Source: Desulforudis sp.
Lineage (GTDB): Bacteria; Bacillota; Desulfotomaculia; Desulfotomaculales; Desulforudaceae
Direction of reading: 5' to 3'
Assembly (NCBI GenBank): GCA_019084485.1
Contig: JAHRFU010000079.1
Location: forward strand, 1-40,367
DNA length: 40,367 bases
The notes beneath the pieces are model-generated. The model made no database searches. It saw only the letters and a program-made list of their open reading frames with translations, and was not told the origin of the DNA. Shown here one piece after another: positions 3,611 through 32,183 of the stretch. Positions within the stretch are counted from its first letter, which is position 1, and every line of letters starts with the position of its first letter. The translations under genes were made by a program, and so were the position numbers.

Positions 3611-5743
3611 ATGTATTTTTCCGATCAGCTGAACCCCGCACAGTCAGCCGCCGTGCACTACGGGGACGGACCGCTTTTGGTACTAGCCGGCGCGGGTAGC
3701 GGCAAGACCAGGGTCTTGACCTACCGGGTGGCTCATCTGTTGGAACACCAAAAAGTGGATCCGCGTCAGCTCCTGGCGATAACCTTTACGAATAAAGCGG
3801 CCCGGGAGATGCGGGATCGGATCGGGCGGTTGGCACCGGCCGCCGCACCGACTCTCTGGGTGTCCACCTTTCATGCGGCCTGCTTGCGTATCCTGCGGCG
3901 GGAGATCGAACTTCTGGGTTACAACCGCAGTTTCGGGATCTACGACGAAGGGGATCAGCAAACCGTCGTGAAGGGGTGTTTGAAGGATCTCTTCCTGGAT
4001 CCGAAGCGTTACCCGCCCAACACCTTCCTGGCGGCGATCTCCTGGCAGAAAAACCTCTTGGTTACGCCCGAAGCCTACGCCCGAACAGCCGACGGATATT
4101 TTGAGGAGAAGGTGGCGAGCGTCTACCGCGCCTATCAGGCCATGTTGGAGCGGAACAACGCCTTGGATTTTGATGATCTGCTGATGCTCACGGTCCGGCT
4201 GTTTCAGGAACAACCGGACATCTTGGCGTACTATCAGGAGCGGTTTCAGCACGTGCTGGTGGACGAATACCAGGACACCAACCATGCGCAGTACGTGTGG
4301 ATTCACCACCTCGCGGGCAAATACCGGAACCTTACCGTAGTCGGTGACCCGGACCAGGGTATTTACGGCTGGCGCGGGGCCGACATTAATAATATTTTGA
4401 ATTTCGAGTGTGATTACCCTGATGCCAAGGTGATCACGCTGGAACAGAACTACCGTTCCACCACCACCATCCTGGACGCAGCCAACAGTGTCATCCGGCA
4501 CAACAGCGAGCGCAAGGAAAAGCGACTGGTTTCCACGAAGGGCCTTGGGGTGCCGATAGTTTTGTTCAGGGCGGCGGATGAGATCCTGGAAGCCCGGTTT
4601 GTGGCCGAGAGTATCCGCCGGATCCACCGCGATGAAGATATTCCTTACCGTGGGATGGCCGTCTTGTACCGGACTAACGCCCAGTCCCGCGTACTCGAAG
4701 AAATTCTCCTGCAAAAAGGCATCTCCTACACCATTGTCGGTGGAACCCGTTTCTATGAGCGCAAGGAAATCAAGGATGTAATGGCCTATCTAAGGGCGAT
4801 CGTCAATCCGGCGGACACGGTGAGCCTCGCCAGGATTATCAACACTCCGCGCCGGGGGATCGGGAAGTCTTCCCTGCAGCGGTTCTTTGACTATATTCAG
4901 GAAACCGGGATCAGCCCGACGGATGCTTTGCTCCACGCTGCCGAGATCAATCTGATTTCTCCAAAGGCTCGGCGTGAGATGGTCAACCTGGGTGAGTTGT
5001 TCCAGCTCTGGCGTAGCCACGAAGGCAACGTGACCGAAATAGTGCGGGATGTGCTGGAGAGCACGGGCTATCGTCAGGAACTGATCGCGGAGAAGACGGT
5101 GGAAGCCCAGACCCGCATGGAGAACCTGGACGAGTTCCTCTCTGTGACCCGGGCCTTCGACGGCGGTACGGGAGGCACGCTGGACGAGTTCATGGGTGAG
5201 ATTGCGCTGTTTACTGATCTGGACAGCCTCGAGGACCGTTCCGACCAGGTGACCCTGATGACCCTGCACAGCGCCAAGGGACTGGAGTTTCCGGTCGTGT
5301 TCGTAGCAGGTTTGGAAGACGGGGTGTTTCCCCACTCCCGTGCCTTTTCCGAACCGGCACAACTGGAAGAGGAGCGCCGTCTTTGTTACGTTGGGATAAC
5401 ACGTGCCGAGGACCGGTTGCACCTGACTTACGCGACCAGGCGGACGATTTACGGGAACACGGTGTATAACCAGCCTTCGCGATTTCTGGCGGAGATTCCC
5501 AGGGATCTATTTGAGGGGCAAGTCGCGGAGAAAGGGGTTCAGACACCGGAACCATCCACTCCGACGGCGGTGGGAAGCTTTAAGCCCGGCGACAAGGTAT
5601 GGCATCGCAAGTGGGGACAGGGTACAGTGGTGATGCTGGAAGGGAAGGGCGACGATGCCCGGATTACGGTAGCCTTTCCCGAGCAGGGTGTCAAAACCCT
5701 GATGGTGATGTATGCGCCGCTGGAAAAGGCCGGCGAGAGGTGA
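3611..5743 (+). CDS. pcrA: ATP-dependent 3'-5' DNA helicase PcrA (UvrD/Rep family)
   Basis: PcrA is the essential superfamily 1A helicase of Firmicutes, acting in nucleotide excision repair, rolling-circle replication and removal of RecA filaments. The translation has Walker A AGAGSGKT (26-33), motif Ia TFTNKAAREM, motif II VDEYQDTN (about 217-224), motif III GDPDQGIYGWRGA, motif IV QNYRS, motif V TLMTLHSAKGLEFPVVF and motif VI YVGITRAEDRL. The last 60 residues form the Tudor-like RNA-polymerase-binding module (GDKVWHRKWGQGTV). The 710-residue length is normal. GGAGGAAG sits just upstream of ATG 3611. Low-complexity repeats begin right at its stop codon. Confidence 0.97.
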   Translation: MYFSDQLNPAQSAAVHYGDGPLLVLAGAGSGKTRVLTYRVAHLLEHQKVDPRQLLAITFTNKAAREMRDRIGRLAPAAAPTLWVSTFHAACLRILRREIELLGYNRSFGIYDEGDQQTVVKGCLKDLFLDPKRYPPNTFLAAISWQKNLLVTPEAYARTADGYFEEKVASVYRAYQAMLERNNALDFDDLLMLTVRLFQEQPDILAYYQERFQHVLVDEYQDTNHAQYVWIHHLAGKYRNLTVVGDPDQGIYGWRGADINNILNFECDYPDAKVITLEQNYRSTTTILDAANSVIRHNSERKEKRLVSTKGLGVPIVLFRAADEILEARFVAESIRRIHRDEDIPYRGMAVLYRTNAQSRVLEEILLQKGISYTIVGGTRFYERKEIKDVMAYLRAIVNPADTVSLARIINTPRRGIGKSSLQRFFDYIQETGISPTDALLHAAEINLISPKARREMVNLGELFQLWRSHEGNVTEIVRDVLESTGYRQELIAEKTVEAQTRMENLDEFLSVTRAFDGGTGGTLDEFMGEIALFTDLDSLEDRSDQVTLMTLHSAKGLEFPVVFVAGLEDGVFPHSRAFSEPAQLEEERRLCYVGITRAEDRLHLTYATRRTIYGNTVYNQPSRFLAEIPRDLFEGQVAEKGVQTPEPSTPTAVGSFKPGDKVWHRKWGQGTVVMLEGKGDDARITVAFPEQGVKTLMVMYAPLEKAGER

Positions 5744-5744
5744 G

Positions 5745-5810
5745 GTGAGAGGCGAGATGAGATGTGAGAGGCGAGATGAGATGTGAGAGGCGAGATGAGA
5801 TGTGAGAGGT
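5745..5810. repeat. 19-bp tandem repeat, three full copies plus a partial
   Basis: The unit GTGAGAGGCGAGATGAGAT is repeated exactly at 5745-5763, 5764-5782 and 5783-5801, followed by a diverged partial copy (5802-5810). It starts immediately at the end of pcrA. Exact identity of the copies suggests recent slippage or expansion. Confidence 0.95.
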
Positions 5811-5830
5811 GAGAGGTTGGAAGTGAGATG

Positions 5831-5896
5831 AGTAGAGAAGAGTAGAGTAGAGAAGAGAGAAGAGAGAAGAGAGAAGAGAGAAGAGAGAAGAGAAGT
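5831..5896. repeat. AGAGAAG heptanucleotide microsatellite
   Basis: After a few irregular AGTAGAG units, the heptamer AGAGAAG repeats about six times almost perfectly, giving a 66-base strand with no C and few T. Such homopurine tracts are prone to slippage and can form triplex DNA. There is no coding role. Confidence 0.9.
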
Positions 5897-30132: not shown

Positions 30133-31368
30133 TTGAACAAAACCAATCTAAAAGACCTCTCGCTCGAAGGGCTCCAGAAGCTGGTCATCGATTACGGTCA
30201 GCCGTCTTATCGGGCCCGCCAGTTGGCGGAATGGCTTTTCCAAAAAGACGCTGCCACGTTTGAGGACATGCTTAACCTTCCGGCAACGCTGAGAGAGGCA
30301 CTGGAGAAGAAGCATACGGTCGACCGATTGCGTCAGCTTAAAAGGCTGGTATCGAGCGAAGGTACGACTAGAAAATACCTTTTTGAGCTTTCGGACGGCA
30401 ATACTGTGGAAAGTGTCCTGATGCAGCACGACTACGGTGCCTCGGTCTGCGTCTCCACGCAGGTGGGGTGCCGGATGGGATGTGCGTTATGTGCGTCTAC
30501 GCTGGGGGGTTGGGTGCGTAACCTGACTCCCGGTGAGATTTATGAACAGGTTCTGGCGATACGCCGTAACCAAGGCCGTGGTGTCCAGCGGATTGTGATA
30601 ATGGGTACGGGCGAACCGCTGGACAACCTGAATCACACCCTGGTTTTTGTCCGGAACATTACCGCGGATTACGGTTTGGGGATCAGCACCCGCCGCATCA
30701 CCCTGTCCACTTGCGGATTGGTACCCAAGATTAAAGAACTGGCCGCTAGCGGCCTTGGGATTACGCTTGCGGTATCCCTGCACGCGCCGGACGATGACCT
30801 CAGGAACCGCATTGTGCCGGTGAACCGCCGCTACCCGCTCGCAGAACTGATTCCGGCCTGCGCGGAGTACATCAAGCAGACCGGCCGCCGGGTTACCTTT
30901 GAGTATGCCCTGATACGGGGTGTAAATGATGCTCCGGAACAGGCGAAGGCGCTGGCGGCGCTGGTGCGGGGACTGAATTGCCACGTAAACCTGATTCCGG
31001 TGAACACCGTCCAAGAACGCGGTGCAAAACCACCCGGCGCTTCTACCGTCAGGTGGTTTCAAGAGTTACTGGAAACTAGGGGGATCCCGGTCACGGTTCG
31101 CCGAGAAATGGGTGCCGATATTAACGCGGCCTGTGGTCAACTCCGGGCTGTGGATCTGAGAAACACTGCCGCTACGTCTTCACCCTCGCCAGGGATGTCT
31201 TCGAATAGGGTACCTTCGCCGAAGTCATCACCGCCGGAGCCAGTCCGGAAGGAGCCAGTCCGGAAGGAGCCAGCCCGAAAGGAGCCGGTCCGAAAGGAGC
31301 CGGTCCGAAAGGAGCCGGTCCGGAAGAAATCATCCCGGAAGGGGCCGTCCCGGAAGGGGCCGTCCTGA
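30133..31368 (+). CDS. rlmN: Dual-specificity RNA methyltransferase RlmN with repetitive C-terminal tail
   Basis: RlmN is a radical-SAM enzyme that methylates A2503 of 23S rRNA and A37 of some tRNAs. The CxxxCxxC cluster motif is Cys113, Cys117 and Cys120 (GCRMGCALC), and the methyl-carrying cysteine is Cys334 in NAACGQL. The usual enzyme ends about residue 345; here an extra 65-residue tail follows, rich in Ser, Pro, Lys, Arg and Glu, with six near-identical PVRKE pentapeptides encoded by a 15-bp minisatellite. The tail is very basic and probably disordered. TTG 30133 gives the normal N-terminus, with GGGAACGGA upstream. Confidence 0.95.
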   Translation: MNKTNLKDLSLEGLQKLVIDYGQPSYRARQLAEWLFQKDAATFEDMLNLPATLREALEKKHTVDRLRQLKRLVSSEGTTRKYLFELSDGNTVESVLMQHDYGASVCVSTQVGCRMGCALCASTLGGWVRNLTPGEIYEQVLAIRRNQGRGVQRIVIMGTGEPLDNLNHTLVFVRNITADYGLGISTRRITLSTCGLVPKIKELAASGLGITLAVSLHAPDDDLRNRIVPVNRRYPLAELIPACAEYIKQTGRRVTFEYALIRGVNDAPEQAKALAALVRGLNCHVNLIPVNTVQERGAKPPGASTVRWFQELLETRGIPVTVRREMGADINAACGQLRAVDLRNTAATSSPSPGMSSNRVPSPKSSPPEPVRKEPVRKEPARKEPVRKEPVRKEPVRKKSSRKGPSRKGPS

Positions 31369-31374
31369 AGGAGC
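31240..31374 (+). repeat. 15-bp minisatellite in the rlmN 3' end
   Basis: About nine 15-base units run head to tail from 31240, with variants such as CCAGTCCGGAAGGAG, CCGGTCCGAAAGGAG and CCGTCCCGGAAGGGG. The first eight units stay in frame with rlmN and encode (P/S)-(V/A/S)-R-K-(E/G/K). Shorter ACCGGAAAG units continue to about 31402 past the stop. Copies are diverged stepwise, suggesting expansion by slippage or unequal exchange. Confidence 0.9.
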
Positions 31375-31460
31375 CATCATCCCCGGAAAGACCGGAAAGA
31401 CCGGGTACCTCGGAGAAGAAGGCAGCAGGACGGCGTATCAGGGGGGAGTGAGAGATACCG

Positions 31461-32183
31461 GTGAAGTGGGATGCGACATCAAACGTTGGACTGGTCAGGC
31501 CCAACAACGAGGACGCTTTTTGTGTCAATGAGCAGTACCGGTTGTTTGCGGTAGCCGACGGGATGGGAGGGCACAAAGCGGGCGAAGTGGCCAGCAGGCT
31601 GGCCCTTGGTACGCTCGAAGCCGAGTATGTCAGGCTGCTGCAGGAGGGAGAATCCCCGGCAGGGGCTCTTTATCGTGCGGTGATTGCAGCCAACAACCAG
31701 GTATTTGACGAATCGCGTCGAAGTGAGAGCCATAAGGGAATGGGAACCACGCTGACTGCCTGTATCCTGCAGACCGGCAAAATGGTGTTTGTCCACGTCG
31801 GTGACAGCCGGATCTACTTGATCCGAGACGGCAACGCCGTACGGCTTACCGAGGATCATTCGGTGGTGCAGGAGTTGATCAAACAGGGGAAACTCACGGA
31901 CGAAGAAGCGGAGAGCCACCCCTATCGCAATATGTTGAGCCGTGCCCTAGGGACTGAGGGAGGGGTGCAGGTGGATGTCCAGGACTATGTCCTGAATGAT
32001 GGGGATCAAATCCTGCTTTGCACTGACGGATTAACTGGATTGGTTCAGGATGAAGAGATTGCGCAGGCGGTAAGCACTGCCGGGCAGCCGGCCGAATCGG
32101 TCGGTGAACTCCTGAACTGCGCCCTGAAACGTGGCGGTAAGGATAACATTACTCTAGTCTTGGTGGAGTTTGAGAAATCATGA
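31461..32183 (+). CDS. prpC: PP2C-family serine/threonine phosphatase
   Basis: This 240-residue Stp/PrpC phosphatase dephosphorylates targets of the adjacent kinase. PPM metal-binding motifs are present: SNVGLVRPNNEDAF (Asp18), VADGMGGHKAGEVAS, HVGDSRIYL, LCTDGLTGLV and GGKDNITLV. Manganese-dependent activity in the cytosol is expected. GTG 31461 follows GGGGGGAG. The stop overlaps the kinase ATG by 4 nt (ATGA), coupling phosphatase and kinase as in most Firmicutes. Confidence 0.96.
   Translation: MKWDATSNVGLVRPNNEDAFCVNEQYRLFAVADGMGGHKAGEVASRLALGTLEAEYVRLLQEGESPAGALYRAVIAANNQVFDESRRSESHKGMGTTLTACILQTGKMVFVHVGDSRIYLIRDGNAVRLTEDHSVVQELIKQGKLTDEEAESHPYRNMLSRALGTEGGVQVDVQDYVLNDGDQILLCTDGLTGLVQDEEIAQAVSTAGQPAESVGELLNCALKRGGKDNITLVLVEFEKS

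Follow-up and report, generated by a model that had tools for sequence, protein, structure and literature searches.

A 15-bp minisatellite encodes a lineage-specific C-terminal tail on RlmN of Desulforudis sp.

Introduction

The RlmN protein encoded on a contig of Desulforudis sp. continues well past the end of its catalytic part, and the added stretch is largely the translation of a tandem array. The locus thus raises the question of whether this tail is a new functional part of the enzyme or a product of repeat growth at the 3' end of the gene. A preliminary description, made from the letters of the DNA, had proposed a basic, disordered tail that could bind RNA and whose repeat number could vary without disrupting the gene. 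If the tail is neutral, the locus would show clearly, against dated neighbours, how a 3'-end minisatellite makes new protein sequence, and would also illustrate how a closely packed next gene limits such growth. If it is functional, RlmN would be an rRNA/tRNA methylase whose RNA-binding tail varies in length. We here use "the window" for the whole stretch of DNA that was analysed (contig JAHRFU010000079.1 of assembly GCA_019084485.1, 40,367 nucleotides).

Results and discussion

An intact RlmN core is followed by a basic tail

The rlmN open reading frame occupies positions 30133-31368 on the plus strand, starts with TTG and encodes 411 residues. Its product matched TIGR00048 with 395 bits against a cut-off of 290, over residues 2-346 and profile positions 5-351 of 355, and the homology stops at residue 346. 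The gene is the only rlmN in this genome and is located in the order rsmB - rlmN - prpC - pknB/prkC type kinase. In a 25-row alignment of RlmN sequences, C106, C113, C117, C120 and C334 were found in conserved columns, and C113, C117, C120 and C334 were invariant, indicating that the expected core cysteines are present. We take C113, C117 and C120 to be the radical-SAM cysteines of the CxxxCxxC motif and C334 to be the cysteine of the ACGQL motif, presumably the methyl-carrying one of RlmN; the tail starts after this catalytic cysteine loop. The AlphaFold model showed a well-folded core with a helix up to residue 348. As the core is intact, RlmN bearing the repeat tail probably retains a working core enzyme.

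Beyond CGQL the protein continues for 74 residues, 66 of which lie beyond residue 345, in agreement with the approximately 65 added residues proposed earlier. This tail contains 21 Lys and Arg residues against 7 Asp and Glu, together with 14 Pro and 12 Ser, and its computed pI is 11.6. Residues 349-411 were predicted to be disordered, with an AlphaFold pLDDT of about 45-50 over residues 351-411. The basic and disordered character stated in the preliminary description was thus reproduced, the disorder as a prediction. The interval that it had assigned to the tail (31165-31374) does cover tail sequence, but its end lies 6 bases beyond the stop codon (Table 1). The tail matched neither a Pfam nor an NCBIfam family, and a gene fusion as its origin was rejected on this basis.

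Table 1. Features of the rlmN-prpC region, in positions of the window
Feature	Position	Strand	Basis
Catalytic part of RlmN, residues 1-337, up to ACGQL	30133..31143	+	TIGR00048; Pfam Radical_SAM, RlmN_N
Start of tail, Ser/Pro-rich linker; relatives match only its first 2-3 residues	31144..31235	+	Alignment
Tandem array of 15-bp units, eight of them full and in frame with rlmN, the ninth of 14 bases	31236..31376	+	Tandem Repeats Finder, unit table
Present rlmN stop TGA, inside the shortened ninth unit	31366..31368	+	Unit table
31 more codons open in the rlmN frame, to the TGA at 31462-31464 overlapping the prpC GTG	31369..31461	+	Frame reading
GGGGAGTGA, ribosome-binding stretch of prpC, not in frame with rlmN in the window	31443..31451	+	Comparison of related loci
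prpC, Stp1-type PP2C phosphatase, next gene	31461..32183	+	NF033484, 267 bits against a cut-off of 230

The tail is encoded by a single-copy array whose ninth unit breaks the frame

Tandem Repeats Finder described the array with a period of 15, 9.5 copies, 82% matches, 3% indels and a score of 154, the highest among the tandem repeats of the window, and a separate repeat search recovered it as family D1 with a spacing of 15. When read in the rlmN frame after the Ser/Pro-rich linker, the array gives EPVRK five times and EPARK once, followed by KSSRK and GPSRK, that is, eight full 15-bp units in tandem with a period that is a multiple of three. The PVRKE-type units noticed in the preliminary description, and its view that a minisatellite encodes the tail, were accordingly confirmed. 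The first six units are most similar to one another, and the edges of the array are degenerate. The ninth unit has 14 bases, not 15 (GGGCCGTCCCGGAAG then GGGCCGTCCTGAAG), and being one base shorter than its neighbours reads CCG TCC TGA, so that the array is not frame-keeping throughout. The statement that the 15-bp period preserves the frame therefore applies to the eight full units and fails at the ninth, which breaks the frame and sets the stop.

The array is single-copy in its own genome. The next best match elsewhere is just 17 bases, which rules out a mobile or dispersed repeat, and the absence of a second copy from the genome indicates that the array grew in place. The units are not all alike, and exact repeats within the array reach at most 33 bases, shorter than the usual read length, making a miscounted copy number unlikely.

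The array is open in each of the three forward frames, and the open rlmN frame is therefore no evidence of selection. A codon-usage score was set against five neighbouring genes including the RlmN core, a measure that is weak on short repetitive sequence; in the rlmN frame it was 0.24 for the core, -0.32 for the linker and -0.10 for the repeat, and it was higher in the +2 frame (0.14 and 0.37 for linker and repeat, respectively). Among the first six units three columns vary, two of them being synonymous third positions; weak coding constraint would give such a share, but the number is too small to decide.

A tail of this length is confined to one genome of the class

An RlmN match was detected in 94 of the 113 genomes of the class that were searched, and a tail of at least 60 residues after CGQL was found only in that of the window. 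The survey parsed 86 of 105 loci, the other 19 either not fitting the motif used or reaching the locus end without a stop, and counted the identical genes of the pairs L003/L032 and L004/L033 twice each. Apart from the window's, the tails had 5-29 residues with a median of 10 (85 rows; 18 of 20 more loci). The class genomes with an open frame long enough for a 60-residue tail gave 10 (G008), 13 (G012), 22 (G043) and 5 (G015); five further genomes (G021, G052, G064, G078 and G109) had only split or partial RlmN matches, in open frames too short for such a tail. In most relatives the protein stops some 10 residues past CGQL, at around residue 347, close to the normal end at about residue 345 assumed at the outset. 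The tail is thus lineage-specific, with no conservation of a long basic tail among the class genomes that matched RlmN, and the survey rules out an ancient RlmN domain.

Two minor observations were made in this survey. RlmN was found in none of the nine genomes of one family of the class, several of them more than 90% complete, which suggests loss or strong divergence of RlmN there. In a Peptococcaceae MAG (L070:3001-4821), RlmN is fused in frame, with no intervening stop, to a PHP domain (PF02811, E 5.6e-9), and the frame continues to the contig end.

The genus was represented by two genomes, that of the window and Desulforudis sp. SURF_60, whose RlmN (L003 and L032, one gene) is 79% identical to the window's. 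Its tail after CGQL, RTVASSQRAASSRHRHHRHSRGSEWYR, has 27 residues and is basic, free of repeats and unrelated to the tail in the window; the preliminary description had named a relative with the same tail lacking repeats as evidence for an ancient domain, and this shorter, non-alignable tail is not such a case. At the DNA level, the two genomes are 79% identical in the rlmN core and 82% in prpC, and the tail between them does not align. In five family mates, the RlmN tails have 10-11 residues and the gene terminates in the GAGTGA belonging to the ribosome-binding site of prpC. RlmN commonly has a short basic end (RRR...), such as RRRHRTKAVEE in genome G002, so that the basic start of the tail is not special.

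The stop register at the junction with prpC was lost in the genus

Seven related loci from outside the genus were compared, and in six of them (L004 and L006-L010; not L005, with a tail of 13 read by eye) rlmN ends in GAG-TGA, which doubles as the ribosome-binding stretch of the next gene. GGGGAGTGA is kept in both the window and SURF_60 and is out of the rlmN frame in both, indicating that the stop register was lost in the genus. This loss may have been a single event in the ancestor of the genus, or may have recurred through the one-base loss in the window. The rlmN stop of SURF_60 is a TGA overlapping the prpC ATG, equivalent to the TGA that overlaps prpC in the window. The window's rlmN ends 92 bases before prpC; as prpC keeps its own ribosome-binding stretch, it should be translated despite this gap.

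CGQL and the prpC start are 317 bases apart in the window versus 80 in SURF_60. Measured up to the overlapping stop, the net difference in length is 237 bases and thus divisible by three, as expected in one case of three by chance. Past the present stop the window reads SGGSERYR, resembling SRGSEWYR of SURF_60. The ribosome-binding site can suffice for this likeness, and protein constraint need not follow.

Repeat growth with tolerated translation is the preferred origin

On these grounds we consider it likely that a minisatellite expanded between the catalytic C-terminus of RlmN and the start of prpC and that its translation is tolerated. In this course of events, tandem duplication through slippage or unequal exchange would have multiplied a 15-bp unit located at the rlmN 3' end, within the spacer that separates the catalytic C-terminus from the prpC ribosome-binding site. 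With the old stop register lost and the GC-rich units free of stops, the array would have come to be read as the basic disordered tail. The core enzyme would fold without the tail and tolerate it, and the array may now be decaying, the loss of one base in the ninth unit having set the present stop. The single-copy state of the array, the difference between the two spacers and the unalignable tail between conserved flanks count for such an expansion, as do the short tails of the family mates and of the class at large, the openness of every forward frame, the codon-usage score, the low pLDDT of the tail and two further 3'-end arrays in the genome; the share of synonymous columns, the multiple-of-three length difference and the RNA fold described below count against it. 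The tail is real and made by the repeat, and it is probably near-neutral; most likely it represents ordinary lineage-specific drift, not a new functional part. The event is of an ordinary kind in an unusual host gene.

A functional tail or array is less probable

It is unlikely that selection maintains the basic disordered tail as an accessory element for RNA binding, with repeat number tuning its strength. For RNA binding itself, the charge of the tail is the only evidence; the reading would also fit its attachment to an RNA-modifying enzyme, the presence of a basic tail, though an unrelated one, in SURF_60 and the Arg/Lys-rich low-complexity regions of prokaryotic nucleic-acid-binding proteins described in PMC6821194. 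However, neither the sequence nor the length of the tail is conserved, the base lost from the ninth unit placed a frame break and a stop within the array, and the codon score is not coding-like in a region open in all three forward frames. In addition, the ribosome-binding stretch of prpC survives, yet rlmN no longer ends there as it does in the family mates. The fuller proposal, that the tail is a recently born, copy-number-tunable and putatively RNA-binding appendage of a single-copy RlmN with its length set by the frame-breaking ninth unit, is very doubtful; were it true, the RNA affinity of RlmN would shift as 15-bp units come or go.

We hold it to be similarly improbable that the array has a role at the DNA or RNA level between rlmN and prpC, through spacing, mRNA structure or control of prpC-prkC, with translation being incidental. 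The array directly precedes the conserved ribosome-binding stretch of prpC, and its strand folds as RNA somewhat better than shuffled sequences (z -2.39, with 4 of 200 shuffles equally good), a modestly stable fold by which the RNA may have a role of its own. On the other hand, no Rfam family was found in the window, and neither a promoter nor a plus-strand terminator was found in the array, the two terminator-like sites (against 0.8 expected in shuffles) both lying on the minus strand. No inverted repeats were found in the array region, and the array is absent from SURF_60.

Tandem repeats are known to cause errors in assembly, and this genome is assembled in 137 contigs. If the ninth unit regained its register, the frame would moreover end, through the +2 frame, at the GAGTGA (31446-31451) used by the family mates. 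An error in copy number or in the ninth-unit base is nevertheless most improbable, since the units differ, the longest exact repeat is short, and the tail and repeat remain even with the base restored.

Comparison with known systems

A literature search, done mostly without full texts, returned no paper on a repeat tail of RlmN and none on an RNA-binding tail of variable length in an rRNA/tRNA methylase. Topoisomerase I of Streptomyces reportedly carries C-terminal lysine repeats. PMC6821194 describes Lys/Arg-rich low-complexity tails that are conserved and functional in nucleic-acid-binding proteins. The RlmN tail resembles these as a basic low-complexity C-terminus on a nucleic-acid enzyme, but differs in being confined to one genome of those compared and in that any function of it is putative. 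Bacterial intragenic minisatellites (VNTRs) include those of the M. tuberculosis ppe and pe_pgrs genes (PMC12817950). Like them, the rlmN array consists of head-to-tail units inside a gene, with a unit length divisible by three, and a change of its length can spare the upstream frame, whereas it is located at the extreme 3' end, has one unit short of a base and is known here from one genome. A further parallel is found in the de novo C-terminal additions of yeast proteins by stop loss or frameshift, mostly the latter (PMC4494051). In both cases translation comes to extend into formerly non-coding sequence on the 3' side of a gene; in contrast to the yeast additions, that of rlmN is largely a tandem array, is bacterial and lies upstream of a closely packed next gene.

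Other arrays in the genome and its relatives

In 588 kb of the window's genome (25%, the window included), three of the five arrays detected lie at gene 3' ends, namely those of rlmN, pcrA/uvrD and an rsgI-like anti-sigma gene, compared with none of three in 386 kb of SURF_60 and none of six in 400 kb of G002, where four of the six have a common CRISPR-like 66-bp unit. These counts are small, include the rlmN array itself and were obtained with cut-offs set after a first look, and they are suggestive at most of a genome-wide habit of 3'-end arrays.

The pcrA/uvrD gene (3611-5743) is overlapped by GA-rich arrays of a 19-bp unit (4.4 copies) and a 7-bp unit at 5732-5895, which start 12 bases before its end; no array was found after pcrA in SURF_60. 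A small ORF (L128:118-624) with no Pfam match has near its start a 12-bp array that encodes a Lys/Asp/Glu-rich stretch. The RsgI-like anti-sigma gene, on the minus strand of contig C1 of the window's genome (L116:45-1127), has a C-terminus made of a 24-bp minisatellite, with two TPPGLKDG units in one frame followed by the same unit read in another (WYTTRSQG). The rsgI-like gene of SURF_60 has four in-frame units at the equivalent place, and this 24-bp repeat, unlike the rlmN array, is common to both genomes.
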